Positions 13,345 through 33,195 of a stretch of 64,000 bases of DNA are shown one piece after another (within the stretch, counting starts at the first letter, position 1; the number at the start of each line of letters is the position of its first letter). This stretch comes from Chthoniobacterales bacterium. Its GTDB lineage: Bacteria; Verrucomicrobiota; Verrucomicrobiia; Chthoniobacterales; DASVRZ01. A program made the position numbers and the translations under genes. The stretch lies in the NCBI GenBank assembly GCA_039930045.1, contig JBDSQB010000006.1, positions 1 through 64,000 of the forward strand. Reading direction: 5' to 3'. The notes beneath the pieces were generated by a model. It saw only the letters and a list, made by a program, of their open reading frames with translations. It was not told where the DNA came from and did not search any database.

Positions 13345-13400
13345 CGAGCGAGTATGTAGGTCGAAATGGTGGTTATCAAATGACCTATCCATTGAACTCA

Positions 13401-13416
13401 TGTGACGGTAACATCA
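13401..13416 (-). promoter_or_regulatory. Candidate operator upstream of the GH39-GH51-GH2 unit
   Basis: The minus strand reads TGATGTTACCGTCACA. Its core GTTACCGTCAC (13412-13402) is an 11-base odd-centred palindrome with one mismatch, and it lies 58 bases before the GH39 start codon. The same core type (GTTACTGTAAC) lies exactly 58 bases before the small secreted protein gene at 33093. Inferred to be the binding site of a local sugar-responsive repressor or activator that is encoded elsewhere. Confidence 0.45.
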
Positions 13417-13458
13417 GACCTAGGCCTCGGACTAATCTTCCTTGAGAGTTGCCGATTC

Positions 13459-16326
13459 TCAGGGCACGGATGGACGAGACTTGCTGGGTTGCGTTTTCAC
13501 TGTGACCGTTGCCGCAGGGAGGCCGTCGGCGGTGGCCGTCAATTTGAATTCGCCTGAGTCGCGTGTGGATTGGACGATGATTTGCGCCAGGCCGTTGAAG
13601 AGGCTGCGCGACCACGGCTGCGTGGCGGGTTTGCCGATGATTTCCACGGTCACGTTCGGATTCAGCCCACCCAGCGCACCGCCGTTCAGACAGCAAACCG
13701 CGATGAGATTGTCGCCGGGGCGAAGGAACTTCGTGATGTCGAACGCCGGCTTCGCGTCCCAGTCGTGCGTCTCGCCGACGTATTGGCCGTTCACGAAATA
13801 CCAACCCTCGTCGTCACAGCCGGCGAACTGGATTTGCACGCCCGTGCCGCTCAAGTCTTCCTCGGTCAGCGTCAGATGCGCACGGTAAATCGCCGCCGTG
13901 TTGTCAGTCGTAATCGTGGAGGATTCGCCGCCTTTAGCTGGGAGCGTGTTCCAACTGGAGTCGTCGAAATTCGCCATGTATTCCGGGACGGAACTGGTGC
14001 TCCCATGATCTTTCGTCACCTGCCAACGCCACTCGGTCAATGCAATCTCCCGCACGGAAGGGTTCGAGACAAACGTGTCTGGCTCATGGCAACTCGGGTC
14101 GCCGTTGCCCACGCCGATGATTTTGCCGGCGCCTTCGATGGCGAAGTTGATCCTGTTCTGCGCCACTGGAACAAAGCGACCTTGCGCGTCATACGCCGTC
14201 ACGGAGAACACCGCCACATCCTCGCCATCGGCGTTGATGGTTTTGCGATCCGGCGTGAGTTGAATCTTCGTCGCGTCGCCGGTCGTTTCGACCTTGGTTT
14301 CGGCGATGACTTTGCCTGCGGCATCAAAGCCTTTCGCGCTCAGAGTGCCCGGCGTGTATTTCACCTTCCACGTCAGCTTGGAATTTGGCTTCATCGCCTT
14401 CCTGCCGAGCGTCTCGCCATTCAGGAACAGTTCGACTTCCTTGCAATTGCTCAACGCGTCCACGCGAAACTCCTGGCCTTCGCGCCCGGGCCAGTTCCAG
14501 TGCGGCAGGAGATGCAGCACGGTGTCGGTGGTCCACCAGGCTTGATAGTAATAGAAGTTGTCCTTGGGAAAACCACACATGTCGAGAACGCCGAAGTGCG
14601 AGTTGATGTTCGGCCAGGCATACGGCGTCGGCTCGCCGCGATAATCAAAACCCGTCCACACGAAACCGCCGGAGAGCCACGGACGTTCCGCGAACCAGCT
14701 CCACCACGTCTCGGAGTTGGTCACCCATTGGTTCGGCTTTTCGTCGTAAGCCGCCACGTGGCCGCGCTCCCGGCTGCTCTCATAAATGCCGCGCGTGCTG
14801 GTGGCGCTGGATTGTTCCGTGCCGACGTTCGACTGGAGCGGATGTTTGGCGTGATACTTGTCCATATCCGGGCCGGGATGATAATTCCAGCCGCGCACTT
14901 CGATGACGCTGTTGATGCCGCCAACGGTGTCGCCCTGCGGCGCGGGATACGTCACGGGCCGCGTAGGGTCGAGGCGCTTGACGTAGTTCTGCATCGTGCG
15001 CGCGGTGTTGCGGCCCTGATCATTGCTTTCCACGGTGCCCTCCTCGTTGCAGACGCTCCAGATGATGATGCTCGGATGATTGCGGTCGCGCCGGATCATC
15101 ACGTCCCATTTCCGCATGTTTTCCGAATCGCTGCCGAGCAGACGGTTTTCGTCCATGATCAACATGCCGAGCCGGTCGCAGGCGTCGAGCAGTTCCGGCG
15201 TGGGCGGATTGTGCGACGTGCGGATGCCGTTGCAGCCGAATTTTTTCAACTGGTTGATGCGGAACTCCTGCAACGCATCGGGAATCGCCGCGCCGACGCC
15301 CGCGTGATCCTGGTGATTGCAGACGCCGTGAATCGGGCAAGGCCTGCCATTTAACAGAAAGCCTTTGTCGGCATCGAAGACCGCGGTGCGGATGCCGAAC
15401 ACGGTTTCCTTTTCGTCCACCACTTTGCCATCCACCGAGACCGTGGTGACGAGCTTGTAGAGCTGGGGCGATTCCGGCGACCACAGCACCGGCGAGGAAA
15501 CTTTCGACTGCAACTTCAGCGTGGCCTGCAACCCGCCGCCGACGGACTGCGTTCCCTTGAATTGCGCGACGGATTTTCCATCCGGCGAAATGACTTCGCA
15601 GTTCACCTGCGCGTTGGCGGCAGTGGTGAGCGTGTTCAGCACGTCCGCCTCGACGTGAATCTCCGCCTGATCCGACGGCACGTTGTCCTTGAACTGCGAG
15701 TAAACGAAAATCCCGTCCGGCGCGATGGCGACCGGAGCGCTTTTCTCCAACCAGGCATGGCGGTAAATGCCCGCGCCTTCGTAGAACCAGCCCTCGAACT
15801 TCGTCGCGTCCACCTTCACCGCGACGACGTTAGGCTCACCATACTTCACCACGTCCGTGATGTCCTCGTGGATCGGGTAATAACCGCCCTCGTTACGGCG
15901 GACGAGCCAGCCGTTGACCCAGATGGTCGCGTCACGATACACGCCGTCGAACGTGAGCCGGATGCGCTTGCCTTCGTCCTCCTTCGGCAGCTCGAACGTG
16001 CGGCGATACCAGCCGATGCTGTTGGCCTCGAATCCCGGCCCGAGCGCCTTGTAGCCATGATTCTTGTCGGCGCTTTTGTCGAACGGCAGTTCGATCGCCC
16101 AATCGTGCGGCAGATTCACCGTGCGCCACGTCGCGTCGCTGAAATGCTTTTCGGAAGCCGGCCCGGCGTTCGCGCCCGCCTTGTCCAGCCGCAACGCTTT
16201 CGGCCAGTCATCGCCCAGATGAAATTTCCAGTTGGCGTCGAGCGAGAGACGTTCGCGTGGTGATTCGGCAGCTGAAAGTTGCGCGACGGAAAGCGCCGCC
16301 CAGACGCAGGCAATAATGGAGCGCAT
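13459..16326 (-). CDS. GH2 beta-galactosidase-type enzyme with a jelly roll nested in its C-terminal Ig domain
   Basis: 955 residues from ATG 16326 (MRSIIACVWAALSVAQLSAA signal peptide); an in-frame extension to 16434 lacks such a signal. Canonical GH2 order: NLPHDWAIELPFD, SIGWYRRTF, Ig domain, barrel with CNHQDHAGVG, RTSHNPPTP, acid/base E428 (SVCNEEG) and nucleophile E504 (VGTEQSS). Near the end, where the paralogue at 4.4 kb reads straight through, about 150 residues (about 753-900, EWRWQVTK to NVTVEIIGK) forming another sugar-binding jelly roll (ANFDDSSWNTL, FAGCDDEGWYFVNG) are inserted between CHEPD and RSLFNGLAQ. Likely beta-galactosidase with added glycan binding. Transcribed from its own upstream region (16327-16539). 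Confidence 0.9.
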   Translation of the reverse strand: MRSIIACVWAALSVAQLSAAESPRERLSLDANWKFHLGDDWPKALRLDKAGANAGPASEKHFSDATWRTVNLPHDWAIELPFDKSADKNHGYKALGPGFEANSIGWYRRTFELPKEDEGKRIRLTFDGVYRDATIWVNGWLVRRNEGGYYPIHEDITDVVKYGEPNVVAVKVDATKFEGWFYEGAGIYRHAWLEKSAPVAIAPDGIFVYSQFKDNVPSDQAEIHVEADVLNTLTTAANAQVNCEVISPDGKSVAQFKGTQSVGGGLQATLKLQSKVSSPVLWSPESPQLYKLVTTVSVDGKVVDEKETVFGIRTAVFDADKGFLLNGRPCPIHGVCNHQDHAGVGAAIPDALQEFRINQLKKFGCNGIRTSHNPPTPELLDACDRLGMLIMDENRLLGSDSENMRKWDVMIRRDRNHPSIIIWSVCNEEGTVESNDQGRNTARTMQNYVKRLDPTRPVTYPAPQGDTVGGINSVIEVRGWNYHPGPDMDKYHAKHPLQSNVGTEQSSATSTRGIYESSRERGHVAAYDEKPNQWVTNSETWWSWFAERPWLSGGFVWTGFDYRGEPTPYAWPNINSHFGVLDMCGFPKDNFYYYQAWWTTDTVLHLLPHWNWPGREGQEFRVDALSNCKEVELFLNGETLGRKAMKPNSKLTWKVKYTPGTLSAKGFDAAGKVIAETKVETTGDATKIQLTPDRKTINADGEDVAVFSVTAYDAQGRFVPVAQNRINFAIEGAGKIIGVGNGDPSCHEPDTFVSNPSVREIALTEWRWQVTKDHGSTSSVPEYMANFDDSSWNTLPAKGGESSTITTDNTAAIYRAHLTLTEEDLSGTGVQIQFAGCDDEGWYFVNGQYVGETHDWDAKPAFDITKFLRPGDNLIAVCCLNGGALGGLNPNVTVEIIGKPATQPWSRSLFNGLAQIIVQSTRDSGEFKLTATADGLPAATVTVKTQPSKSRPSVP

Positions 16327-16539
16327 GAACAGACAGCCTTTCAATCGGGCAAAAACGCGCGCTGCTGGAGTGGTTCTTACTATCCTGGCTATGGGCTTCA
16401 AAGTGCTAATGTAGAACTTCGATGTCATGTTCAAGTATTTGAAAAAGTGTGTTGCGGAGTGGATTGGAGGACTAGGTCATCTAAAGAAAAATGGGCGCAA
16501 TTGCGCCACCCACTGTGAACATTCGTGGCGAAGTCATCA

Positions 16540-16684
16540 TCACACGACTACCTGGTAGAATCGCCTCGGCTGCGTGGCTCCGTTGGTGTCGATAGACCTG
16601 GATGGTGCCACCAGTGCCGGCGATGTTGTCCTGCACCGTGACCAGCGTCGCATCGCGTTCGTAGCCGCTCTCATCGAATTTCAC
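16540..16684 (-). pseudogene. Remnant of a C-terminal module, frameshifted
   Basis: The minus strand reads LVTVQDNIAGTGGTIQV, after which the frame is broken; skipping one base near 16594 restores IDTNGATQPRRFYQVVV and a stop. This matches the extreme C-terminus of the large GH74 protein (VTVQDNIAGNGS, TDTGGAAQPKRFYRV) and of the giant esterase-GH2 protein. No start or upstream domain is present, so it is the tail of a lost gene. It lies downstream of a terminator hairpin. Confidence 0.8.
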
Positions 16685-16702
16685 GAAAGTCGGCTACACT
16701 AC

Positions 16703-16734
16703 AAAAGCCTCTGCGGCTTCCCACAGAGGCTTTT
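16703..16734 (-). terminator. Intrinsic terminator hairpin after the PEP-CTERM gene
   Basis: Perfect 11-bp inverted repeat AAAAGCCTCTG / CAGAGGCTTTT with a 10-base loop, about 30 bases past the stop of the PEP-CTERM gene. The A and T ends make it able to work in both directions. Confidence 0.8.
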
Positions 16735-16763
16735 GAACTTTGAGACTTGGCGAAAAAAAGCGC

Positions 16764-17513
16764 CTACGCCATCATGCGCCGACGACGGACGAAGATGGCC
16801 GTGCCGACCATGCCCACGGCGACAAGCGCCAATTCGTTTGGCTCGGGAACGACGACGAAACCAAGATCGTCGTAACGGACGAAAGCATTTTGGGCGATCG
16901 AAAAGCTCTTGATGTAGTTAGTCCCAGTAGCTGACAGACCCTCGAAATAATTGGATTGCGGGGTCGTATTCGGTCCCGCTAACGCTCCCGAGGTGCTGGC
17001 GGTGGTGTTGTCCAGAAAGGTAACCGTCAGCACGGAAGAGCGAGCGTTATCGTTCCGATTCCCGAGGAAGATTCCGATGGATTGCAGCGGCGTGCTCAGA
17101 GTAAAAGTTCGGGTGGCCGAATCGCCACCAAGCCCCATTCCCAAACCCGCAGAAGTCAGTTCCCCGGTTCCGTTATTGGATTGGTTGATACGGTCGGTGG
17201 AGCCCAATGTCATAACCAAGCTGTTGGTCGCCGAAGTGCCATAGGACAAGGTGATGGTATCTCCGTTAGCGATGCCGGCGTCGCCCAAGGCGCCAAAGGC
17301 GGCACTGTTAAAGTCCCAAACACCACCGGTGTTGTTGGTGAATGCGCTTGCCACGTTCGTCGCAAAAGTCGCATTGGAAATGGAACCCGTGGCGTCGAGA
17401 ATCGTATGACCGTTTGTGTTCATGACTCCCACCGTGGTGTCGATGAGGGGGGTCGCAGATGCGGCGGTGATTGAAGCGGCCAAGATGCCGGCCATGGCGA
17501 GTATGGATTTCAT
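16764..17513 (-). CDS. PEP-CTERM surface protein
   Basis: 249 residues. A signal peptide (MKSILAMAGILAASITAASA) is followed by a beta-rich, Asn/Thr/Gly/Ser-rich body (GVWDFNSAAFGALGD, NGDTITLSYG) and the sorting tail VVPEPNELALVAVGMVG plus an arginine cluster. PEP-CTERM proteins are processed by an exosortase (none in this window) and are typically delivered to the cell surface or exopolysaccharide. The start at 17513 is chosen because in-frame alternatives at 17588 and 17717 add a charged, non-signal stretch. It stands alone between the esterase-GH2 giant and the GH2 gene, with its own terminator and a long upstream region. A matrix or display role in this enzyme island is inferred only. Confidence 0.88.
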   Translation of the reverse strand: MKSILAMAGILAASITAASATPLIDTTVGVMNTNGHTILDATGSISNATFATNVASAFTNNTGGVWDFNSAAFGALGDAGIANGDTITLSYGTSATNSLVMTLGSTDRINQSNNGTGELTSAGLGMGLGGDSATRTFTLSTPLQSIGIFLGNRNDNARSSVLTVTFLDNTTASTSGALAGPNTTPQSNYFEGLSATGTNYIKSFSIAQNAFVRYDDLGFVVVPEPNELALVAVGMVGTAIFVRRRRMMA

Positions 17514-18064
17514 GGTTTTTTTGGAGCAGGTACTTTGTGTTGGCGTGGATGCCGTATCGCATCCGATGATTGAGGTTTCTGGGTTCATATTTTTTTTGTT
17601 TACGACTACGGTTACTTCGGATTTTTGTGGAAAATCTTTTCTTCGTCGAGCGAATCTTTCCCACCGCGACTGGGACGCAACGCGGCGAAGTCGATGAGAT
17701 TCCGTTGCCGTTTGCACGGTACTTGGATCTCCTGGGAGGTGAGAAGGGGGTTCACGATCATGGATCTGCTGTGATACTGCTCAAGGAATACAGAATGCGG
17801 GCGAACTTCCCAATTAATAATCTTGCCGTAAAATTGATACAGTATCATGCAAAGACATTTCAAAACCATCCTTGGCGCCACGCCCTTGATCTGACGACTT
17901 GGGCCCGCCTTGCAAGTGCTGCGGTGGTTCCGCGCCATTTGAAAAGCCGCTACGCGAAGTAGGAGCGCCCGGGCGCAACCGTTTGGGGTTTCCCCGTCCG
18001 AGCTTGGGGGAAGCGAAGGCGGGCAAGAGGATTGAGATCGACGCGAACCTCGTACCGGGTGGAT
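17514..18064. other. Intergenic region upstream of the PEP-CTERM gene
   Basis: 551 bases without a credible gene; open frames here have no family signature. It holds a perfect 13-base palindrome TGATACAGTATCA (17835-17847), related to the island's candidate operator, a possible half site at 17771-17779, and a 12-base GC palindrome GCGCCCGGGCGC (17965-17976) that lacks a T tract and is therefore not a clear terminator for the gene ending at 18065. Confidence 0.6.
17835..17847. promoter_or_regulatory. Candidate operator palindrome
   Basis: TGATACAGTATCA is a perfect odd-centred palindrome, 322 bases before the PEP-CTERM start codon at 17513. It shares the central TACAGTA with the sites at 23929, 25756 and 33150. 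Confidence 0.4.
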
Positions 18065-21000
18065 TCACCAACTGACGACCCGGTAGAAGCGTTTTCCTTG
18101 GGCGCCCCCGCCAGTGTCGGTGACCTGCTTGGTGCCGCCGTTGCCGGCGATATTGTCCTGCGGCACGCCGTTGGTCTGCACCGTGGTCCATGAGCCGCCT
18201 TGCAGCGTATCGGAACGCTCCGCGCGGTAGGTTTTACCCGACACACTCGGGAAACTCAGCACGAAGTCGTTTCCGCTCGCTTGTATCTGGGTGATCTTCA
18301 GCGAACTCGACGAGTCGTTCGGATTCGTTCCCGCCGCAAATTCCTGCGCGTTGGTCATGCCGTCCCCGTCGGGATCCGCATTGGGATCCTGGCCGAGCGT
18401 GTTGAATTGCTGCAATTCCCACGAGTCGCCCAGGCCGTTGCCATCGCGGTCAACGCCGGGTTCGGGCAGCGCGCCAAAGTAGAAATCCGCCCCACCTTCG
18501 TAGAGGCCCGTTGCGGTCGTATCCGCCGAACTCGGTCCGATGGTGGTCGCGGCGGGACTCTGGAATTTATTGCCGATGGCGTTGATCGCGTGAAGCAGCG
18601 AGAGATTGCCGGCGGGAAATGTCGGGCTCACGCTGGTGATCCACGTATAGTTCGACGGCGTGAGGCTCGGGGTGAGCACGCGCAGGAAGAGATTCGAGGT
18701 GTCGGTCGTCAGGGTGATCGGCTGCTGGGTCGTCCCCAGTTGCGCCCAATAAAGCTGGCCATGGTAGCCGCGGAACTCCGGATAACCCCACTGCGTTCCG
18801 TTGACGATGTTGTTAGCCGCCTTGTAGTTCACCCCGATTTCCTGACCTTCCAGGCGATTTTTCCACACGCGATACGGACCCTGCCCCAGCCAGCGCATGC
18901 CGGTGACATTCGCCTCGGGATAGTCGAAGGTGACGCCGAGCCACGTCTGCGTGCCGGTGAGCGTGTAGCGGTATTTCAGATTTACCCATCCGTTCGGATG
19001 GATACGCCACTGGAAGCCGTTGCTTGCGCTGGTAACATCATTCATCGTCACGACATAATCCGCGCCGTCGAACCCGTGGGTGACGCTCGACGTCGTCCAG
19101 GAGCCCGACACGGGGCGAGGCCCGTTCGAGAGCGACACTGGCTGGCCGGAGACAGTCACTCCATTCAGTCTCCCGGTGCTGAGATCGAAGGCCCATGTGC
19201 GTGTGCCGTTGGTGATGCTGAGCACGCTGCCGTTGACACTAGGGGTAAGGCCGCTGGGCGTGCCGGCAACGTTCACGATGCGGTTGTGCACCTGGGCCAC
19301 GCTGTGCAACGGCCATGTCCAGGTATAAATCTCGCGCCCGAAGGTATCTTTCGCTGTCACGCGCAGCGCATCGTAGCTGGCCACGCTCGCCGGGACGCCG
19401 AGCGTGAGCGTGCCCGACGCACCGGAGGCGACCGAAGGTCCGGCGAATTCCACACTGCTTTTGCCGACGATGAAGCCGCTGTTCTGCACCGCCGTCGAAT
19501 CCGTCGGGTCCGGAAACCAGCCGAGTTTCCAGCTAAACGTGCATTGGTTGAGATTGGTGAAGTCGAACCGGTTCTCGACCGCGAGGGAGCCGGTGAAGGT
19601 GGCCGGGTTTGGCGCGGTGATTTGCACCGGGCTCCACAAGGCTTTCACACTGTAATAGCTGGCCTCTTTCTCGCGATACGGGCCGACGATGCCGTCGGCC
19701 GCGTCGGCACCACTCACGCTGACCGCGCCGCCCTGGTCGTCGCGCACAATGCCTTCGTCGATGAGCGACCAGATGAACATGCCGCCGCCGTTGGGCGCGG
19801 TGCGCATCGCGTTCCAATGATCCGCCAGGCCCGCACCGCCGCCGCCATCGAAAAGAGCGTGCTGCATCTCCGTGGGCATGAACACCGGCTGGCCCGCGCC
19901 GAGATAACTGATGAAGGTGTCGTAAGGGGCGTAGTGGTGCGTGCGGACGCCACCAGTGAGCTCAGTGGGCCAGTTGGCCGGGTGCAGCACCTTGCGATTC
20001 TGCGGATCCCAGAGCCCGAAGTCGTCGTCCAAGGTTCCGTTGGAACCGCCTTCATTGCCATTGGCCCACGCGAAAATGCTCGGGTGGTTCACATCCCGAA
20101 TCACCATCTCGCGCACGAGGCCCGGCCCGATGATATTGTCGTAAGCTCCCTGCCAGCCAGCCAGTTCGTCGAGCACGAGCAGGCCAAGCCGGTCGCACTC
20201 TTCGAGGAAATGTTTCGAAGGCGGGTAATGGCTCATCCGCACGGCATTCATGTTCAAGCTCTTCATCAGCTCGATGTCGGCGATGCTCACCGCGCGGCTG
20301 GTGGTGCGTCCGTCCGTCGGCCAGATCTCGTGCCGGTTTGCACCGCGCATCACGATCTTCTTCCCGTTCAACGTGAACCCGCTGTTCGCGACGAAGCCGA
20401 TCGTGCGAAAGCCGATGGTCTCGGTGCGCGAATTCAGCACCGCCGCGCCGTCGCGCAACTCGATGGTGAGTTTGTAGAGGTTCGGGAACTCGGGCGACCA
20501 CGGCTGCGGGGTGGGCAGGGTGGCGGAAAGAACGACGCTGGTGGTGCCGGTGGCCGCGGCCTGGGTGAACTCTGCACCGAGTGGGTTGTTGTTCATGTCC
20601 GTCACGCGGGCCGCCACGGTGCAGGGGCTGGTCACGCCGGAGAGAAACGAACTGACGCTGATCTGCCCGTTGGCCTTCGCGTCCACGGCGACGCGTTCGA
20701 TATTCGCGGGCGGGCGGGCTTCGAGATACACCGGCCGATGGATGCCGCCGAAAACCCAGTAATCCGCCGTCCGCTCGGCATCGTTCACGGACGCGTTCGC
20801 GGAGACTTTCTTGACGGTGGCTTCGAGCAGATTGCTCGCGCCGTAGTTCAGGTTATTCGTCACGTCGTAGCTGAACTCGTAAAAGCTGCCCTGGTGAAGC
20901 GCGCTGGTGGATGTTGCCGCCTGGCCCGCGCTGACGCCGCTGCCGATGGCGGAATACAGGTCTGTGGCCGTGCCGCCGGAGTTTTGCAGGGTGAGAGTGC

Positions 21001-23308
21001 CGCCCGCACCCGTGACCGGCGCGACGGTCGTGCCGCTGGAAGCGGTGTTCAAATTCCACTGATACAGCGGCGTGGGTGGCGTGGCGCTTGCGCCGAGACC
21101 GGATGCGCGCACCGACTCGAGCTGGGCCTGGCTGAGGGCGCCGTTGAAGATGCGGAAGTCGTCGCCCGAGCCGTCGAAGGCACGGCCGCGATCGCCGCGG
21201 TTCAGGAAATAGGCGAAAGCGTTCGCACCAAACGGCACCGATGCGCCCGCCCCGTAAGTGGCCGTGGTCACCGGGGTTCCCAAGGCACCGGATCGGTTTC
21301 CCACATAAATTTTCACCTGGTTCGAGCCCAGCGTGGAATCGTAGGTCACCGCCACGAACGTCCAGTCGCTTCCGCTCAGTACGTTGGGGGTGGCGATCAC
21401 GCCGTTCCCGGAATCGGTATTCACCTTGAACTGGAGCGTGCGGGTGTTGCCGCCGGAGTTGTAGGCGGCGAGATAGACGCCATTGCCGTTTGCATCGTAG
21501 TTCGCAGTCGCGCCGATCAGCATGAGCCGGGGGAAGCGCCCGTCGGGTATCGTGCTGAAGTCCGCCTCGGGCTTGATCCAGCAGGCCAGCGTGAAGCTGG
21601 TGAGCGTGCCGAGGTTCACGTTGCCGGTGGCGCTGGCGGCTATGCCACCGCCCTGCCCCATCGAGGTGGAGGCGGCGTTGTTGAAGGCGCGGTCGTTGGC
21701 CAGCGGTGTCGGGGTCGAGACCGTCCCCCCGCCGGGCGCCGCGCCGTTGATGCGTGTCTCGGTGTCGGTCATCGAGCCCTCGTAGACGAGGAATATGCGC
21801 TTGCCGGCCCAGTTGGCGGGCACGTTGAACGTTTTCTTATACTCGCCATACTCGGTGGTGTTGATGTTGCCGTATTCGTAGGTGCCGAAGCCCTTCGTCT
21901 CCCAGCACGACGGCACGGGAATCGTCGTCCAGACGCCTGCATTCCGCCCGGCGGACACGCGAAAATCCCACGGCACGGTGTTGTCCTTGTCGGTGCCGGA
22001 GAGATACTGGACCTCATTGGTCGTCGCGACGCTGGGGGCGACCAGTCGAACCGTCTCATTGTCCGCGATCCCCGTCACCTGGTAAGTGCCGCCGCCGGTG
22101 AAGGTGGCGGTCACAACGCCGTTACGCACCACGTTGACCGTTTGGCCATTCATGTCGGCCGTGTCCACCGTGAGTTTGCCGGTGACCGCGTAGGTGCTCT
22201 GCAGATGGAAGGTGAAGGTCTTCACTCCGGGGGTTAAGGAATAGAGGAGCGAGCCCGCCCCGTTCTGCCCGTCGCCGACGAAGAAGCTGAATTTTTTGGT
22301 GCGGACGAAGCCGGCGACAAACAGGTTGTCGCTGGCATTCAGCACGGGGGCGGCAATCGAGCCATTGAGCACGCGGCTGAGATACCACGACAGGCCCGAC
22401 GCCTGCTGGTCGGTCGTCAAGGTGGTATGCGGCCAGTATTGCTGCTCGCTGGCGTCATTGATTCCATTGCCGTTGAAATCCTGATAGGTCCCGGCATTTC
22501 CCGTATGCAGAGTGATGTTATTGAATTCCCCGGTAAAACTCGCGGCGGCGATCGCATTGTTCCGATAGCTCGTGTCGTTGATCGGCGGACAAGTGGGCTC
22601 GTCGCCGTTCACGAAGAAATGAATCTCGCTGTAGGGATTGTTCCGGGAGGCGAGATTCGAGGCCCTCGCCATGTAGCGCGAGGTGATCAGCGCGGTCGCG
22701 CCGTTCGGATTGCCCACGTCGGTATCAAGCTGCGTCTTGTGATTGCTGGCGGCCCCATTGTTATACCAGCCATTGACCAGGTCGTAACCGTAGTCCGACA
22801 TGCCATAGAAGGCTCCCCCCGTGCGGAACAAGTCGGGGAATTTCGTGAGGGCCGACATGGTGTTTCCTCCTCCGCCTGAATAGCCGGTGATGTTGATGTT
22901 ATTCGGGTTGATCAAGCTGCCATACTGGGTCTTCGCAGCCTCCACGGCGTCGAGGATATCGTAAATCTCAAGCCCTCCGGAGTCGCGGACGCCGCCGGAA
23001 CCCTCCCGCCCGCGCATGGCGACTGTGACGACAAAGAACCCCTGATCCCGAACCTGCTGGGCATTGGGCCTTACCTGATCGAAAAGACCTGACGGCCCGG
23101 AATACTGATGCAGCATCACCATCAGCGGCGCGTTGGAGACGGCGTTGTTATAATTCGCCTCCATCTTCAGATCGAGGGGGCCTCCCGCATCCGTGCTGAT
23201 GGTGGACTGATACGTCTTGATCTCGGTAATGTTCGCCGCGGCGGCGATTCCCGTCGTGACGATAAATGCTGCGGCGGTGACAATGGATTTCAGGGAGAGG
23301 GAGTTCAT
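18065..23308 (-). CDS. Giant secreted fusion: alpha/beta-hydrolase esterase + GH2 with nested LamG + TSP3/C-terminal module
   Basis: 1747 residues from ATG 23308 (MNSLSLKSIVTAAAFIVTTG then IAAAAN); a longer frame to 23437 runs through debris of another gene. Domains: alpha/beta hydrolase at about 25-340 (MLHQYSGPSG, nucleophile elbow GYSGGGGN, HFFVNGDEP), beta-sandwich linker, then a GH2 sugar-binding domain from about 430 (PVPSCWETKGFGTYEYGN) that is interrupted at about 530-800 by a LamG/concanavalin-like domain (FTLACWIKPEADF, DDFRIFNGALSQ) and resumes at YEFSYDVTNN. The GH2 barrel has RGANRHEIWPTDGR, RMSHYPPSK, acid/base E near 1084 (ANGNEGGS) and nucleophile E near 1144 (MPTEMQHA), followed by the large beta-galactosidase small-chain domain. 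The tail is a TSP3-like calcium repeat (DPDGDGMTNAQEF) plus the shared YRAERSDTL...RFYRV module. Predicted bifunctional deacylating galactosidase; the activity pairing is inferred. Confidence 0.85.
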   Translation of the reverse strand: MNSLSLKSIVTAAAFIVTTGIAAAANITEIKTYQSTISTDAGGPLDLKMEANYNNAVSNAPLMVMLHQYSGPSGLFDQVRPNAQQVRDQGFFVVTVAMRGREGSGGVRDSGGLEIYDILDAVEAAKTQYGSLINPNNINITGYSGGGGNTMSALTKFPDLFRTGGAFYGMSDYGYDLVNGWYNNGAASNHKTQLDTDVGNPNGATALITSRYMARASNLASRNNPYSEIHFFVNGDEPTCPPINDTSYRNNAIAAASFTGEFNNITLHTGNAGTYQDFNGNGINDASEQQYWPHTTLTTDQQASGLSWYLSRVLNGSIAAPVLNASDNLFVAGFVRTKKFSFFVGDGQNGAGSLLYSLTPGVKTFTFHLQSTYAVTGKLTVDTADMNGQTVNVVRNGVVTATFTGGGTYQVTGIADNETVRLVAPSVATTNEVQYLSGTDKDNTVPWDFRVSAGRNAGVWTTIPVPSCWETKGFGTYEYGNINTTEYGEYKKTFNVPANWAGKRIFLVYEGSMTDTETRINGAAPGGGTVSTPTPLANDRAFNNAASTSMGQGGGIAASATGNVNLGTLTSFTLACWIKPEADFSTIPDGRFPRLMLIGATANYDANGNGVYLAAYNSGGNTRTLQFKVNTDSGNGVIATPNVLSGSDWTFVAVTYDSTLGSNQVKIYVGNRSGALGTPVTTATYGAGASVPFGANAFAYFLNRGDRGRAFDGSGDDFRIFNGALSQAQLESVRASGLGASATPPTPLYQWNLNTASSGTTVAPVTGAGGTLTLQNSGGTATDLYSAIGSGVSAGQAATSTSALHQGSFYEFSYDVTNNLNYGASNLLEATVKKVSANASVNDAERTADYWVFGGIHRPVYLEARPPANIERVAVDAKANGQISVSSFLSGVTSPCTVAARVTDMNNNPLGAEFTQAAATGTTSVVLSATLPTPQPWSPEFPNLYKLTIELRDGAAVLNSRTETIGFRTIGFVANSGFTLNGKKIVMRGANRHEIWPTDGRTTSRAVSIADIELMKSLNMNAVRMSHYPPSKHFLEECDRLGLLVLDELAGWQGAYDNIIGPGLVREMVIRDVNHPSIFAWANGNEGGSNGTLDDDFGLWDPQNRKVLHPANWPTELTGGVRTHHYAPYDTFISYLGAGQPVFMPTEMQHALFDGGGGAGLADHWNAMRTAPNGGGMFIWSLIDEGIVRDDQGGAVSVSGADAADGIVGPYREKEASYYSVKALWSPVQITAPNPATFTGSLAVENRFDFTNLNQCTFSWKLGWFPDPTDSTAVQNSGFIVGKSSVEFAGPSVASGASGTLTLGVPASVASYDALRVTAKDTFGREIYTWTWPLHSVAQVHNRIVNVAGTPSGLTPSVNGSVLSITNGTRTWAFDLSTGRLNGVTVSGQPVSLSNGPRPVSGSWTTSSVTHGFDGADYVVTMNDVTSASNGFQWRIHPNGWVNLKYRYTLTGTQTWLGVTFDYPEANVTGMRWLGQGPYRVWKNRLEGQEIGVNYKAANNIVNGTQWGYPEFRGYHGQLYWAQLGTTQQPITLTTDTSNLFLRVLTPSLTPSNYTWITSVSPTFPAGNLSLLHAINAIGNKFQSPAATTIGPSSADTTATGLYEGGADFYFGALPEPGVDRDGNGLGDSWELQQFNTLGQDPNADPDGDGMTNAQEFAAGTNPNDSSSSLKITQIQASGNDFVLSFPSVSGKTYRAERSDTLQGGSWTTVQTNGVPQDNIAGNGGTKQVTDTGGGAQGKRFYRVVSW

Positions 23309-23320
23309 TGGAGGAGAAAA
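23040..23320 (-). repeat. Source copy of a ~270-bp duplicated segment
   Basis: The 5' end of the esterase-GH2 giant gene (ATG plus about 90 codons and a few upstream bases) recurs nearly base for base at about 24003-24272. This copy is intact and in use. Confidence 0.8.
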
Positions 23321-23329
23321 TGCGAAAAA

Positions 23330-23440
23330 ATGTGGATGATAACGTAACGGTATCACCGTTGAGGACGTTGACCCCGCTGAAAGACGCGTTGTCAAAATTC
23401 CACACGCCACCCTGAACGAGAGCTGTGGCCGGGTCACTGA
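23330..23440 (-). pseudogene. Fragment of a PEP-CTERM/PATR-type surface protein
   Basis: The minus strand can be read as ATALVQGGVWNFDNASFSG then VNVLNGDTVTLSS, closely resembling the GVWDFNSAAFG...NGDTITLS segment of the PEP-CTERM protein near 17.2 kb. It has no start, no tail, and lies in a different frame from the short leader-bearing frame just upstream (23447-23752), so it is gene debris. Confidence 0.6.
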
Positions 23441-23446
23441 CCCGGG

Positions 23447-23752
23447 CTACAACGTCGTCATCCCGAGCACGGAGGTATCGCCGCTCAGGGAAATGGTTTC
23501 GTTACCGTTTACGCTCGACTGGTTGAACACCGCGGTATCGGTCGAAGTAGGCGCAACGCCCGTGGTGCCGCCGGTCGTGGCGTTGTCGGACCAATTGGCG
23601 CTCGTTTGCCAGGTGCCCGGGGTCGTATCCCAATAATAGATCGCCGCCTGGGCGGAATCGCCGGAGAAGAGGAATACGACCGTGGACGCGGTTGCAACGG
23701 CGACGGCGAAGCGGTTGCGGAGTTTGAGGGAGAAAGAGGGCTTGTATTTCAT
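23447..23752 (-). pseudogene. Truncated autotransporter-strand-type (PATR-like) surface protein, N-terminal part
   Basis: 101 residues: a signal peptide (KLRNRFAVAVATASTVVFLF, ending AQAA) followed by YYWDTTPGTWQTSANWSD and DTAVFNQSSVNGNETISL, the opening typical of long proteins with autotransporter-associated beta-strand repeats. It stops after one repeat at LGMTTL. Such proteins normally run for many hundreds of residues and end in an anchoring tail, so this is a 5' remnant. The next downstream debris (23330-23440) is out of frame with it. Confidence 0.65.
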
Positions 23753-23928
23753 CTTGGTTTTGAGGGGAGGAGGCTCAGTGCAAAAAATTTGATCGAACGG
23801 GATGGGAGGTTTTCATGGGAGCTTTCATATTGGCTCTGATTTGAGATTGTGCTCATAGGGATATTGGAGCTGTGATAAACATTCTCTGTTTGCTGAAAAA
23901 CTTTCAAAACATTCTGCCGTCGCCGTGA

Positions 23929-23951
23929 TGTTACAGTATTTCCCCCCCCCC
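23929..23951. promoter_or_regulatory. Operator-like TGTTACAGTATTT followed by a C10 tract
   Basis: TGTTACAGTATTT (23929-23941), preceded by GA, is identical over 16 bases to the site 20 bases upstream of the PEP-CTERM gene at 25736. It is followed directly by ten cytosines (23942-23951). It lies 177 bases before the truncated PATR-like gene. Confidence 0.4.
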
Positions 23952-24002
23952 GTAAATCGGTCCATCTGTGGACATTATCAGCGATCCAAAGGCCTAATCT
24001 CG

Positions 24003-24272
24003 AAGCTGCTGGGCATTGGGTCTCACCTGATCGAAGAGCCCTGTGGACCCGGAATACTGATGCGTCGTCACCATCACCGGCGCGTTGGAGACGGCGTTAT
24101 TATAATTTACCTACATCTTCAGATCGAGCACTCCTCCCGCATCCGTGCTGATGGTGGACTGATACGTTTTGATCTCGGTAGTGTTCGCCGCGGCGGCGAT
24201 TCCCGTCGTGACGATGAGCGTTGCCGCGATGAAGACTGATTACAGGGAGAGAGAGTTCATTGGAGGAGAAAA
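24003..24272 (-). pseudogene. Decayed duplicate of the 5' end of the esterase-GH2 gene
   Basis: Read from the ATG at 24260 the minus strand gives MNSLSL, stop, SVFIAATLIVTTGIAAAAN, TTEIKTYQSTISTDAGG and further matches to the first ~90 residues of the giant protein, with at least two in-frame stops. DNA similarity to 23040-23320 continues a few bases upstream of the ATG, so this is a DNA-level duplication that has since decayed. Confidence 0.85.
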
Positions 24273-24336
24273 TGCGAATGAGCCTCGAATCGAGTTTACG
24301 ATCCTGACTAAAGCGGCTTCCCATTCTGACTATAGC

Positions 24337-24453
24337 GAGTGCCAAAAGGAATTTCCGGCTGCGCCGGTGTAGCGTCGGCTCTGTGAGCCGAAAATGCGCT
24401 CACAGAGCGCACGCTACATTGCCAAAGGCGGAAGGAACTTTTGGCGGGCACTC
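24337..24453. repeat. Palindromic REP/MITE-like element
   Basis: Inner arms of 21 bases, 24368-24388 and 24398-24418, are reverse complements with two mismatches and a 9-base loop. Outer arms (from GAGTGCC at 24337 and ending GGCACTC at 24453) also pair, each containing an AAAAGG/CCTTTT-like stretch near the boundary. The ~117-base element has no coding content. It sits between debris and the terminator of the next gene, as expected for a mobile or extragenic palindromic repeat. Confidence 0.65.
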
Positions 24454-24491
24454 TAAAACTAACTCGAATGATTTCGGACGGTGTGATACCC

Positions 24492-24528
24492 GGAAAAGAA
24501 AAAGGGGTCTGAGCATGGCCCAGGCCCC
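24492..24528 (-). terminator. Intrinsic terminator after the second PEP-CTERM gene
   Basis: Minus-strand hairpin from GGGGTCTGAGC (24504-24514) and GCCCAGGCCCC (24518-24528), with G-U pairs and a 3-base loop, followed on the minus strand by the T-rich run TTTTTCTTTT. It lies about 70 bases past the stop at 24597. Confidence 0.8.
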
Positions 24529-24596
24529 CCTAAAATGCCTACCCTTATTTGCAGCAGTTGTTACGAAATGAGGCTTCGGAGTTTGTGGTTTGAAAA

Positions 24597-25736
24597 CTAA
24601 ACTCGAGGAGTTGCTCCACGGCGACGGAAGAGAGCGAGCATCCCGATGCCACCCAGAAGAGTGGCGATTGTGGTCGGCTCGGGAACGGACGCCAAACCGT
24701 ATATGCCCTGACCGTCTGCAGAGGAGAAGGAGAAATCGCTGATCGAAGCCGCCGCGCCATTGAGCTTAATCTGGCCAGCAGTAACAAGGGCATCGAAGCT
24801 GGACTGATCCCACCCCTGAAGCGAGAGGGCACCCGTGCCACCGCTGATGAAGTTGACATAGGAATTGGTGCCGATCATGAACGTGCTTGCCGTGGTGGAA
24901 AGTCCGGTCGCAAGTGTAAAGCCCGTCTGCTTGAAGATGCCATCCGTGATGTTTATCTTGCTTGCCCCATTGCCACTGGCCCAAACCGCTGTGCTATTCA
25001 AGGAGCTGAAATTTCCACCAAGTCCGAAGGGAATGGCCCCCGACACACTGAATGTTCCGGTAGTCAGATTGATCGTGCCCACAGAATTATTCCCGAAGGG
25101 GCCGACGTAAACTCCGCGACCATCGTCACCTGAATTTGCGGACGTGACCGCAAATGTGCCGCCGATCAGATTGATCGAGGCAGAGGCAGAGTTAAAAGGG
25201 CCATTGGCAATCACGAGTCTTTGCTGACTCCAGCCTTGGCTCGTGATATCCCAATTCACCGTGGCACCTCCGCTGATATTGACCGAGGAACCGGCGGCCT
25301 CAACATGCTGGCCGATGGAGGTCTGCCAATATCTATTAATAATGTTCAAGGTGCCGCCGGTTGCGTTGATCGTGCCTGGTCCTGCAGGAGATGCCGCTCC
25401 ATTGCCAAGCGTGGCGATGTTCGCAGTGAGGGTCAACGTGCCGCTGCTGATATTCAGAGTGGCATTGATGGAGGCACCATCATCACTAGGACCCATGTCG
25501 TAGGTATTGGTGGGCGCGTCGGAGAAGTCCTGAGTGCCGGTCATAGTTCCTGGACCGGTGTAGGTCCAGGCCGCGAACGCGGGAGTCACGCTCAGAACAA
25601 ATCCGGCGGCGGACAGGGCAAGGAACTTCCAAGGGGTAATTTTAATGGATTTTATGATTTTGGAGGGTGGAAGGTTTGAGTTTGCTGGTGGGTTCGACTC
25701 TTTTGCATAATAGGCCCAGCTGATAATAAATCCCAC
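24597..25736 (-). CDS. PEP-CTERM surface protein with beta-solenoid-like body
   Basis: Up to 379 residues from a GTG start. The hydrophobic export segment is WKFLALSAAGFVLSVTPAFA at about residues 36-55, and the ~35 residues before it are unusual, so the real start is uncertain; a nearby ATG at 25708 is out of frame. The body is made of repeated glycine/asparagine-rich strands (NISSGTLTLTANIATLGNG, INLIGGTFAVTS, INLTTGTFSVSG), as in autotransporter-strand proteins. The tail VPEPTTIATLLGGIGMLALF followed by RRR is a textbook PEP-CTERM sorting signal. A TGTTACAGTATTT site lies 20 bases upstream and a strong terminator follows, so it is a single-gene unit. Function beyond surface localisation is unknown. 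Confidence 0.85.
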   Translation of the reverse strand: MGFIISWAYYAKESNPPANSNLPPSKIIKSIKITPWKFLALSAAGFVLSVTPAFAAWTYTGPGTMTGTQDFSDAPTNTYDMGPSDDGASINATLNISSGTLTLTANIATLGNGAASPAGPGTINATGGTLNIINRYWQTSIGQHVEAAGSSVNISGGATVNWDITSQGWSQQRLVIANGPFNSASASINLIGGTFAVTSANSGDDGRGVYVGPFGNNSVGTINLTTGTFSVSGAIPFGLGGNFSSLNSTAVWASGNGASKINITDGIFKQTGFTLATGLSTTASTFMIGTNSYVNFISGGTGALSLQGWDQSSFDALVTAGQIKLNGAAASISDFSFSSADGQGIYGLASVPEPTTIATLLGGIGMLALFRRRGATPRV

Positions 25737-25755
25737 AAATGAACCTGGGAATTGA

Positions 25756-25768
25756 TGTTACAGTATTT
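25756..25768. promoter_or_regulatory. Candidate operator upstream of the second PEP-CTERM gene
   Basis: TGTTACAGTATTT, 20 bases before the GTG start at 25736 and identical (16 bases, from TGATG) to the site at 23929. Belongs to the same palindrome family as 33150-33162. Confidence 0.45.
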
Positions 25769-25795
25769 TTGGTAACGCTGGCTGGATGACGGGTT

Positions 25796-29875: not shown

Positions 29876-30030
29876 GTGTTTTTGCGACTTGGCGGTGAGG
29901 TGGAGCAAGACGGCCAAACACGCCACTTTGACCTGCGTCCAGACACGCGGAATCCCCCGCAGAAGTCCTGCGCAATAATATTTGATGGGGGGGCATTTTT
30001 TAGGTCGATTGAGGAATCCGGCGCAGGATC

Positions 30031-30039
30031 GTTACTGTC
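30031..30039. promoter_or_regulatory. Weak operator-like half site before the modular GH74 gene
   Basis: GTTACTGTC, one good half (GTTAC) and part of the other half of the island palindrome, 156 bases before the GH74 ATG at 29875. Weak on its own. Confidence 0.2.
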
Positions 30040-30048
30040 TTGGATTCA

Positions 30049-32400
30049 TCATGGAGAGATAAGGGCCGTGCCGCCTTGGCTCATCACCGGATCGCCGTAG
30101 ATGATGCCGCGTCCGTTGGTGCCAAAATAGACGCGGCCATAGAGACGCGGATCGCCGGTGATGACTTTGCCAATCCAGCCATAGCGATGCTGGTCGTCGT
30201 TGATGCGCGTCCATTTCGCGCCTTCGTCGTCGGAGCGATAGACGCCGTGGGTTTTACCGACGACGCCCACGAGGTAGATTGCGTCGTAGTTCCCACCCGG
30301 CGCGGCTTTGCCGAAGCCGACGACTTCCGCATTGGCCACTTCGGTGATTTTTTGGAACTGCGCACCGCCGTTTGTCGAACGCCAAAGGCCGTTCCAGTCC
30401 GCCGTGAGCCAGAGATCGCCTTCGCGGCTGGGGACTGCGCGCAATGCCTTCGCTCCGGCGGGCAGTTCGTGACTTTGCTCGGCGAAAGTATTGCCGCCGT
30501 CTGTGCTGACAAAGAGCTTCCGCTCCTCCGGCGAGAGCGCGTAGAAAGTTTTTGGATTTACGCGATCCGCGATGACTTCCACTTTTGCGCCCAATCCCTC
30601 GCAACGTTTCCAATTTGTCCCGCGATCCTGCGAGACGTAGGCAGACCCGTCCGGCGCCACCCACACGAATGAACTGCCGTCGGCCGCAACAGCGACGACG
30701 CAGTGGGAATTTTCATCCGTGCCCTGGCTCATCGCGGGCTCGCTGCCAAAGGGCTGCCACGATTTCGCCCCATCAGTGGAGAACGCGCCACGAACCTTCG
30801 ATCCACTGCCCACCCGCACCACGAGATCGGGATTCATCTGGGCAAAGTCCAGTCCAGACACAGAGCTCATCGTGGGATTCGTCCACATCCCGCCCGCCGG
30901 GGAGACGGCGAGATCGTCGTGGCGGAATCCGGCGACATCGAGCAGGCCGCTGATCAATGACGGGCCGCTCGGCGGGCTGAGGAGCGAAGTGACCGCCGAC
31001 TCCTCGATGCCTTGCGCGTGAACTTTCCAAGTCGTGGGAAGCCCTGCGTCTGCTGCGTTGAGATCGTCCGTCGCCCACATCGTCGCGCCGGTGACGTAGA
31101 ACGCCTGCTTGTTGTCGAAGGGGTTGATTTCCACATCGCCGATCCAGTGGCCAAAGTCCGTTTTGGCCCGGCCCCAGCTCAGGTAAGGCGCGGCGGAGGG
31201 GGCATTGGTCGCTTTTTGCGCGAAGTCGCTCCAGTGCGCGCCGCCGTCTTTGCTGCGGAGGATGTCGTCGCCTTTGTTCCAGCGATCCAGCGTTGCGACC
31301 ATGAGTGTCTTCGGGTCTGTGGCATCCACGGCGAGACCGGAGTAGCCAAATTTTCCCTCGCCGCCGACGTCCGGCTTCAGCGGCGTGATGTCCGTCCATT
31401 GGCCGGTCGTCGTGTCGAGTTTCCACACCGCGCCGTTGGTCACGCCGTTTGGCCCCGGCTTGTCGGAGTAGGTGAGGTAAAGCGTGCCGTCAGGAGCGAG
31501 CACCCCGTGATGCGGCATGAGACCCGCTGTCTGCCCGGCGATTTCCTGCCAGCTCGCACCCGCGTCGGTGCTGCGATAGAGGCTGGTCTTCGTGGTAGCC
31601 ACGCTGACGTAGATGGTCGAGGAAGCGGTCCCACGATTGCCGCTTTTTGCGTCGAAAAGCACAAAGCCGACACCCGCGCCGTCCGTTTTTTCTTTCACCG
31701 GGAACGCTGCATCCTGCTGCCACGTCTTGCCAAAGTCGTCGCTTTTCCAAAGTCCGTTGTTTCGCGTTCCGAGGAAAAGACGGCTGCTCAGATTCGGGTC
31801 CACCGCCAGCCGCTCGCCGATGGCGCGCCCGTCTTCATTCCCGCCAAACTTGAACGGCACCGGAGTCTTCTCCCACGTCTTCCCCTGGTCCGTGGAACGC
31901 AGAATCGCGCCGTTTTTTCCCCAGTTGTTTGTGTAAGTTCCAGCAGCCAGATAAACGCGCTGCGCATCCTGCGGGTCGAGCGCAAGGCTCTCGATGCCGA
32001 ACAATGTCCAATCATCGTTGCCGACCCAGTCCAATAGCGGAATCCATCGCATACTTTTTGGAGCCCAACGATACGCGCCGCCGATATCGGTGCGGGCATA
32101 GACCAGCCCCGGTTTCTTAGGATGAAAAACAACGCCGGTGATGAAGCCGGTCCCGCCGATTTCCACATTGCGCCAGCGATAAGGGCCGGTGATTTCCTCC
32201 GCGTCTGGCGCGTCAGGCTCGCCTTGCGGAAGAAGCGTGACGACGGGCTGCGCGGGGGCTGATGATGTTTGTCCGGTGAAAATCCCGCTCCGCTCTGCAG
32301 CGCGCCTCCACAGCGCCTGCGGTGATTGGTTAAAAATCAGACTGCCGCCCACGGTGATTCCAAAAATCACCGGCAGGAGGAAGAGGACGAAACGCTTCAT
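30049..32400 (-). CDS. GH74 xyloglucanase, single-domain, probably membrane-anchored
   Basis: 783 residues. The N-terminus (MKRFVLFLLPVIFGITVGGS then LIFNQ) is a hydrophobic segment followed by basic residues (WRRAAERSG) without an obvious AXA cleavage site, so it may stay as a membrane anchor. After a linker (about 40-75) the GH74 propellers begin at NVEIGGTGFITGVVFHP. D105 in YARTDIGGAYRW and D422 in WIGDVEINPFD match the catalytic Asp positions. Repeated blades RSTDQGKTW, RSTDAGASW and RSKDGGAHW are visible. There are no carbohydrate-binding modules, in contrast to the neighbouring GH74. It probably processes shorter xyloglucan chains near the cell surface. A small secreted protein gene lies 54 bases upstream in the same unit. 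Confidence 0.9.
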   Translation of the reverse strand: MKRFVLFLLPVIFGITVGGSLIFNQSPQALWRRAAERSGIFTGQTSSAPAQPVVTLLPQGEPDAPDAEEITGPYRWRNVEIGGTGFITGVVFHPKKPGLVYARTDIGGAYRWAPKSMRWIPLLDWVGNDDWTLFGIESLALDPQDAQRVYLAAGTYTNNWGKNGAILRSTDQGKTWEKTPVPFKFGGNEDGRAIGERLAVDPNLSSRLFLGTRNNGLWKSDDFGKTWQQDAAFPVKEKTDGAGVGFVLFDAKSGNRGTASSTIYVSVATTKTSLYRSTDAGASWQEIAGQTAGLMPHHGVLAPDGTLYLTYSDKPGPNGVTNGAVWKLDTTTGQWTDITPLKPDVGGEGKFGYSGLAVDATDPKTLMVATLDRWNKGDDILRSKDGGAHWSDFAQKATNAPSAAPYLSWGRAKTDFGHWIGDVEINPFDNKQAFYVTGATMWATDDLNAADAGLPTTWKVHAQGIEESAVTSLLSPPSGPSLISGLLDVAGFRHDDLAVSPAGGMWTNPTMSSVSGLDFAQMNPDLVVRVGSGSKVRGAFSTDGAKSWQPFGSEPAMSQGTDENSHCVVAVAADGSSFVWVAPDGSAYVSQDRGTNWKRCEGLGAKVEVIADRVNPKTFYALSPEERKLFVSTDGGNTFAEQSHELPAGAKALRAVPSREGDLWLTADWNGLWRSTNGGAQFQKITEVANAEVVGFGKAAPGGNYDAIYLVGVVGKTHGVYRSDDEGAKWTRINDDQHRYGWIGKVITGDPRLYGRVYFGTNGRGIIYGDPVMSQGGTALISP

Positions 32401-32454
32401 GGAGACTCTGGGGAAAAATGTCTGCCAGCCGCGAGCTGCGCCAAAGCGCGAGCC

Positions 32455-33093
32455 TCACGGTTTCGTCTTGCGCCCGACCTTGATGTCGTCGATGACCAGT
32501 TCGTTCTCCGGCCCGTTACCCCAGTTAGAGCCATAAATTTGAAAGAGGATTTGGAGTGTCTTGCCTGATGGATCGAAGGGTTCCTGTAGCGACGAGTCGT
32601 CCAGCGCGATGCGATAGACCTGAAATGTGTTGGGTGTCTCCGGCAGCTTGAGGATGGTCGAGATCGAACCGGTACTTTCCCCTGAAAAATTGGCATCTCT
32701 CCAGCCTTTGATGATGACCTGAAACTCTTTGGATTCCTTTGATCCCTTGGCAGCAAATTCAATGAAACATTCCGATGCACTCACGCCTTCGTTCCCGGTC
32801 ATTTGGGCGCGCGAAAACCCAATCGCCGCGAGCGTCCCCCCATCTATAGCGACAAAGTCGGCGTCCAACACCATCGCACGGGAACCCGCCACGCCCACGC
32901 CCTCCTTGAAGGCGTACTTGGCCGTCACTTCCGCCTCATCGGTGACGTAACCACCCGGTGTCTCGGGCAGACCGGGATTCCCCACATCAAAGTTTTCATC
33001 GATAAACAGTTCGTCCGCCGCCGACAGGGCACCGATAGACATCGTAAATATCGCCAAGGCGAGGCTGGCTGGGAGAAAGGAGTGGATTTTCAT
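32455..33093 (-). CDS. Small secreted jelly-roll protein, unknown function
   Basis: 212 residues, with the signal peptide in MKIHSFLPASLALAIFTMSI then GALSAAD. The mature part reads like a carbohydrate-binding beta-sandwich (LFIDENFDVGNPGLPE, FQVYRIALDDSS, ILFQIYGSNWG and the end NELVIDDIKVG), a form often seen in CBM-type or LamG-like modules. No enzyme motif is visible. It is the first gene of the unit leading to the two GH74 genes, 54 bases before the anchored one, and has the clearest operator palindrome 58 bases upstream of its ATG. A role as a stand-alone xyloglucan-binding protein is a guess from context. Confidence 0.75.
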   Translation of the reverse strand: MKIHSFLPASLALAIFTMSIGALSAADELFIDENFDVGNPGLPETPGGYVTDEAEVTAKYAFKEGVGVAGSRAMVLDADFVAIDGGTLAAIGFSRAQMTGNEGVSASECFIEFAAKGSKESKEFQVIIKGWRDANFSGESTGSISTILKLPETPNTFQVYRIALDDSSLQEPFDPSGKTLQILFQIYGSNWGNGPENELVIDDIKVGRKTKP

Positions 33094-33149
33094 TTCATAA
33101 GTCTAGGTCAAAACGCGGCGATATAAAAAGTGTATCCGCCGGCAGGCTG

Positions 33150-33162
33150 TGTTACAGTAACG
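33150..33162. promoter_or_regulatory. Candidate operator in the divergent region
   Basis: TGTTACAGTAACG contains the perfect palindrome GTTACAGTAAC (33151-33161), 58 bases before the ATG at 33093. The equivalent core GTTACCGTCAC is also exactly 58 bases before the GH39 ATG at 13344. This is the best representative of the repeated site. Confidence 0.5.
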
Positions 33163-33163
33163 T

Positions 33164-33195
33164 AAGCTCCATTTCACACGAAATGGAGCTTTTTG
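33164..33195 (+). terminator. Terminator or attenuator hairpin in the divergent region
   Basis: Perfect 11-bp stem AAGCTCCATTT / AAATGGAGCTT with a 6-base loop, running into TTTT on the plus strand. It lies directly beside the operator palindrome and upstream of the rightward genes, so it may be an attenuator or an insulator between the two divergent units. Confidence 0.6.

Follow-up and report, generated by a model that had tools for sequence, protein, structure and literature searches.

Palindromic sites at two plant-polymer loci of a Chthoniobacterales bacterium as putative operators of a LacI-family regulator

Palindromic sites in the window

Five operator-like palindromes are found in a large plant-polymer locus of a Chthoniobacterales bacterium (assembly GCA_039930045.1), within the stretch of 64,000 nucleotides analysed here (contig JBDSQB010000006.1, positions 1 to 64,000; hereafter, the window). 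Similar sites recur on a second contig of the same genome, C1, next to a gene for a LacI-family protein, P0001, which is our candidate for the regulator that uses them. All five window sites are intergenic and each lies 5' of minus-strand genes, in agreement with a preliminary description of this DNA; position 23932 is overlapped only by a plus-strand open reading frame (ORF) of 104 residues, judged spurious.

All genes behind the window sites lie on the minus strand. The first site (33147-33165, centre 33156; core GTTACTGTAAC at 33161-33151, minus strand) precedes the unit 33093-30049, which opens with a 212-residue protein having a signal-peptide-like start and no Pfam family (32455-33093) and includes a GH74 xyloglucanase (30049-32400; PDB 2cn2, E 1.6e-196). 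The second, TGATGTTACAGTATTT (25753-25771, centre 25762), is located upstream of a gene for a PEP-CTERM protein (24597-25736; PF07589 23.1 bits, cut-off 20.7) whose start codon is uncertain. The third (23926-23944, centre 23935) shares an identical 16-mer with the second and stands upstream of both a 101-residue ORF with a signal-peptide-like start and no family found (23447-23752) and a 1790-residue protein with a peptidase-S9/S15-like domain and GH2 domains (18065-23437). The fourth (17832-17850, centre 17841) contains the perfect palindrome TGATACAGTATCA, present at 17835-17847 as previously described, and precedes a PEP-CTERM-like gene (16764-17717), the true start of which is probably near 17513; its product is a homologue of the protein encoded at C1:17398-18189 (46.7% over 227 residues, 2e-52). 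The fifth and weaker palindrome (13398-13416, centre 13407; GTTACCGTCAC at 13412-13402) lies before a GH39 gene (11716-13344; PF01229 371 bits), the first behind this site, and more GH genes follow downstream on the same strand. Two further features adjoin these sites. Directly upstream of the 23935 site, at 24278-23988 on the minus strand, there is a degenerate copy with three internal stops, 81% identical to residues 38-134 of the 1790-residue GH2 fusion protein (23437-18065). Beside the 33156 site, at 33164-33191, a perfect 12-pair hairpin is followed by T on the plus strand and looks like a terminator between divergent units.

The preliminary description correctly placed GTTACTGTAAC and GTTACCGTCAC 58 bases before the ATG codons at 33093 and 13344, with 57 bases separating the site ends at 33151 and 13402 from these codons. 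A fixed distance, however, holds for these two sites only: at the remaining ones the centre lies 9 to 328 bases from the start, several start codons being uncertain. Likewise, TGATGTTACAGTATTT does occur in two identical copies, but they start at 23926 and 25753, three bases off the positions given earlier. Apart from these two window copies, the 16-mer has a single further copy, on contig C1, in all the sequence compared in that test. Comparison of 1-kb flanks across the sites revealed no longer duplication, and the shared 16-mer is thus not a copied segment.

The core TACTGTA is exact at four of the five window sites, on the coding strand and in a single orientation, and no further copy exists in the window in either orientation. 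Overall, the motif is best described as a TACWGTA core within a 19-bp palindrome resembling TGATGTTAC-N-GTAACATCA. Conservation of both arms, to 19 bp, is hard to reconcile with the idea that TACTGT simply serves as the -10 hexamer of a promoter, the palindrome being incidental. The hexamer does resemble a -10 element and is oriented equally at all four window sites having it; yet most sites lack a good -35 element at the right distance, and the half-site goes with LacI helices in other genomes (see below), so that we regard this explanation as very improbable. Behind both 58-base sites, at distances of about 28 and 51 bases downstream, there are promoter-like hexamers, but they match weakly and were given no weight.

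Recurrence of the motif on contig C1

Across the 3.52 Mb of the genome searched, TACWGTA was found in 26 places, whereas the reversed control has 207. Nine of the 26 are intergenic and fall within two loci, four in the window and five in the first 19 kb of contig C1; the other 17, one of which is a C5 site before another LacI gene (see below), comprise nine within genes and eight outside, according to a simple gene caller. Position matrices, examined over 620 kb, allowed the two loci to predict each other. A matrix trained on the five window sites gave C1:18301, 2294, 18496 and 16701 as its best non-training positions (18.8-21.7), the next one (15.7) being coding. Reciprocally, the best non-training positions of a matrix trained on six C1 sites were four window sites (17.3-18.7), again followed by a coding position (15.3). 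We consider this reciprocal prediction a strong test, though not a blind one. None of 300 column-permuted matrices gave four hits at 18.5 or above, as the real matrix did (maximum 3, mean 0.21), and a profile run over the whole genome, with E values up to 10 admitted, returned window and C1 sites only. Further matrix hits are weak (C6:126135 at 15.6, for instance, or C6:107002 and C6:116335, on the contig of the window).

Such mutual prediction, together with the permutation control and the gathering of the core at two loci of matching function, speaks against the objection that short AT-rich intergenic words were picked by eye and agree by chance. What speaks for chance is the behaviour of short patterns. 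The preliminary description had proposed a genome search with GTTACNGTMAC and named a background frequency inside genes across the genome as grounds for giving the idea up; by that standard the pattern alone fails, for it occurs in 8 places, or 12 strand-matches, whereas the reversed control has 27 strand-matches. Even so, four of these eight places are in promoter position and all four belong to the window or C1, while three of the others are coding and one has no nearby gene start. In the window itself GTTACNGTMAC matches three times (0.09 expected), whereas GTTACNGTAAC with two mismatches matches 10 times (9.8 expected). GTTACNGTMAC was therefore dropped as too short and unenriched genome-wide. 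As for chance as an account of the longer palindrome, we find it the least credible of the alternatives.

On C1, site 2294 lies upstream of genes related to the Verru_Chthon cassette proteins D, B and C, as well as of those for a 1362-residue protein and a GH5 enzyme near cel5D and a xyloglucanase. The cassette genes (C1:2356-4550) are adjacent, and Verru_Chthon models are the best matches for B and C; we call the cassette Verru_Chthon-like because all three scores are below the curated NCBIfam cut-offs (D 46.1 bits, cut-off 70; B 45.8, 51.4; C 37.2, 256.5). Sites C1:12515 and C1:12576 precede an H-X9-DG prepilin. Behind C1:16701 there are a YicI-type alpha-xylosidase (1226.7 bits, cut-off 606) and a GPH-type symporter, which exceeds the cut-off of PF13347 and scores 171 bits on TIGR00792, below its cut-off of 231. 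Site C1:18301 stands before a PEP-CTERM-like protein homologous to the one behind window site 17841. Finally, C1:18496 is 76 bases before a GH3 gene, the stop codon of which is 86 bases before the lacI gene encoding P0001. With a GH74 xyloglucanase behind a window site joining the C1 genes, among them the alpha-xylosidase, xyloglucan appears as the common theme.

The candidate regulator P0001 and its relatives

P0001 (581 residues; C1:20863-22608, L044:863-2608) combines an N-terminal LacI helix-turn-helix (PF00356, 43.5 bits, cut-off 27) with a periplasmic-binding-protein-like effector domain (Peripla_BP_3, PF13377, 42.2 bits, cut-off 26.5). Its recognition helix, VSPMTVSR, is the only one with MTVSR among the seven LacI-type genes of the genome. 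For the roughly 235 C-terminal residues no Pfam family was found. Residues ~340-581 correspond to a domain found in regulators of the LacI, GntR and AraC types and also in a beta-helix protein from the same class. Of 383 other genomes in the class, 14 have a match, which in two of them (G432 and G437) covers only the first ~50 query residues. A search of P0001 against a genome contig collection returned no relative.

The half-site and the helix recall GntR of E. coli, also a LacI-family protein with a LacI-type helix-turn-helix, the helix TKMTVSR and the half-site GTTA; GTTA-N4-TAAC occurs twice upstream of E. coli gntK, as GTTACGGGTAAC and GTTATCGGTAAC. Unlike P0001, E. coli GntR goes with a spacer of four rather than three bases, has different target genes and lacks the ~235 extra C-terminal residues. 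Nor does P0001 qualify as a GntR (gluconate) orthologue: the Pseudomonas GntR model gives it 47.2 bits, where the cut-off is 400. Camas et al. 2010 (PMC2978694) describe two residues of the helix domain, 15 and 16, as the determinants in TVSR regulators, and mention a PM class, the predicted site of which had no experimental test. P0001 carries the PM pair at residues 15/16.

The pairing of helix and half-site was followed in relatives, seeking GTTA-N3-TAAC within 300 bases upstream of LacI genes. In a first sample of 97 genes in 96 loci (7 from the own genome, 89 from the same order), the pattern preceded 10 of 17 MTVSR genes and 1 of 80 others, that one being MSVSR; among 256 half-sites and 7 gaps, this was the strongest association. 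Seven MTVSR genes, including P0001, have no exact upstream copy. A second sample, 70 LacI genes in 69 loci of the same phylum and likewise uncorrected for relatedness, gave 6/15 for MTVSR and 0/55 for the others, with hits spanning five families. Such a correlation suggests a rule for predicting regulons in related genomes, namely that the MTVSR helix pairs with GTTA-N3-TAAC. Counts of TGTTANNNTAACA against its control are small and not above control everywhere (G000 2/2, G064 1/3, G070 1/2, G069 2/0, G341 3/1, G242 4/1). In the three genomes of genus g30 each of the four TGTTANNNTAACA places is at a LacI gene. G242 has three of its four on the same contig as the LacI gene, and two of these lie just before the gene. 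The own genome contains TGTTANNNTAACA only in two identical contig-end sequences (C1:48 and C22:48), which we excluded from the regulon; the identical CTGTTACCTTAACAT near the starts of the same contigs (L043:47-61, L062:47-61) is perhaps a shared repeat at contig ends. A GH39 search for phylogenetic footprinting in 57 genomes found distant homologues only, the best at 57% along part of its length, and none of these genomes was of the same family.

The sites might instead serve another DNA-binding protein, LacI-type or unrelated, with P0001 merely a neighbour. Adjacency to sites is no proof, and there are other LacI genes to consider, one of them on the contig of the window at C6:74771. That gene has the helix VSHVTVSL, though, and its 20-kb stretch holds just two one-mismatch matches to GTTA-N3-TAAC, neither of them near the gene. 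Another, on contig C5 (helix VSKNAVSL), has a TACAGTA palindrome just upstream, CTTTACAGTAAAG at C5:161646-161664 (L115:7646-7664), which is perhaps its own operator. The MTVSR helix is absent from all six other LacI genes of the genome, while in both samples of relatives the half-site goes with this helix. We therefore hold a different regulator to be unlikely.

A putative xyloglucan regulon

Taken together, these observations make it likely, in our opinion, that the palindromes are operators of the LacI-family protein P0001, controlling a xyloglucan regulon over two loci, the window and C1. The earlier idea of one unlinked regulator coordinating enzymes and surface proteins gains support, since the 19-bp palindrome recurs on C1 before genes for xyloglucan enzymes, for pilin-like proteins and for a PEP-CTERM-like protein, beside a LacI-family gene whose recognition helix belongs to the type paired with this half-site in relatives. 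As claimed before, no regulator is encoded nearby in the window: none was found among 33 ORFs scanned against Pfam, smaller ORFs lying outside the scan. The site before the GH3-lacI pair further suggests that P0001 may control its own expression.

Several points weigh against this interpretation. Exact GTTA-N3-TAAC is absent from the 3-kb locus of P0001; upstream of the GH3-lacI pair, the site departs from this core at two bases. In the window, the 13407 site lacks the TACWGTA core, while the 17841 and 23935 sites are 328 and 183 bases from the predicted starts. The positives of the first sample all come from two genera of one family, in a test uncorrected for relatedness. The matrix test was not blind because C1 had been picked after an earlier pattern search matched there, and the excess over permuted matrices weakens lower down (6/300 at 17, 46/300 at 15.8). 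The profile found just six of its own ten training sites at E up to 10, so weaker sites may exist elsewhere, and a perfect GTTACGGTAAC lies within a coding region (C17:80296). The common LacI form, an even palindrome with a central CG, is not what we see, the present sites being odd-centred; in the available part of Ravcheev et al. 2014 (PMC4052901), odd palindromes belong to just 4% of LacI regulators. Odd forms being a known minority there, the odd centre does not exclude such a regulator.

LacI operators are expected to be palindromic and to lie in the promoter region, for the most part between 140 and 30 bases ahead of the start codon; the palindrome is present here, at the distances given above. 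In the accessible text of Ravcheev et al. 2014 (PMC4052901), LacI regulons likewise have palindromic operators 5' of sugar-use genes, self-regulation being common though not universal; the present sites differ in their odd spacer without central CG, and that main text does not contain the word Verrucomicrobi. XygS/XygR of Ruminiclostridium cellulolyticum, as mentioned in other papers, also coordinates xyloglucan degradation, import and catabolism, but it is a two-component activator and P0001 is LacI-type. The accessible literature on LacI and xyloglucan, Verrucomicrobia LacI regulons and Verru_Chthon, with most subscription papers outside the search, yielded no description of this regulon. 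It would belong to a known kind, LacI-family regulons, as a variant set apart by the odd spacer, by the additional domain and by placing enzymes under one control with pilin-like and PEP-CTERM genes.

The sites, their clustering in the two loci, the genes behind them and the link between helix and half-site in relatives are seen in the sequence data; from these we infer binding by P0001, its effector, the operon structure and repression rather than activation. LacI-type regulators mostly repress. For this reason, and because in the available part of a Caldicellulosiruptor study (PMC8579813) the sites of all 12 LacI and DeoR factors fell in the leader or overlapped the promoter, we propose repression lifted by a xyloglucan oligosaccharide. 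With no inducer, a P0001 dimer would sit on the 19-bp site and hold the promoters down. A xyloglucan-derived oligosaccharide, imported via the GPH transporter, would bind the periplasmic-binding-protein-like domain and release the repressor. Release would then raise the GH74, GH39, GH2, GH31, GH3 and GH5 enzymes together with the PEP-CTERM proteins, the H-X9-DG prepilin and the Verru_Chthon-like cassette.

It is tempting to go one step further. Possibly, though we have our doubts, a regulator of LacI type, whose C-terminal sensor-like domain is undescribed and is fused in relatives to GntR- and AraC-type DNA-binding domains, induces xyloglucan enzymes jointly with PEP-CTERM proteins and a Verru_Chthon-like prepilin cassette. 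We know of no function for this cassette; if the proposal is true, it would belong to an apparatus for plant polymers at the cell surface, induced by the substrate. The putative P0001 regulon itself would tie surface proteins and pilin-like cassettes of no known role to growth on one polymer, xyloglucan. It makes an unexplained palindrome open to testing as a regulon, with P0001 as candidate regulator, in a bacterial group whose gene control is, to our knowledge, little worked out.

The window also carries, at 33489-55937 on the plus strand, a large cluster of GH43, GH62, GH127, GH59, alpha-galactosidase, fucosidase, GH97 and GH28 genes. None of the operators lies within this cluster, which is therefore probably under other control.

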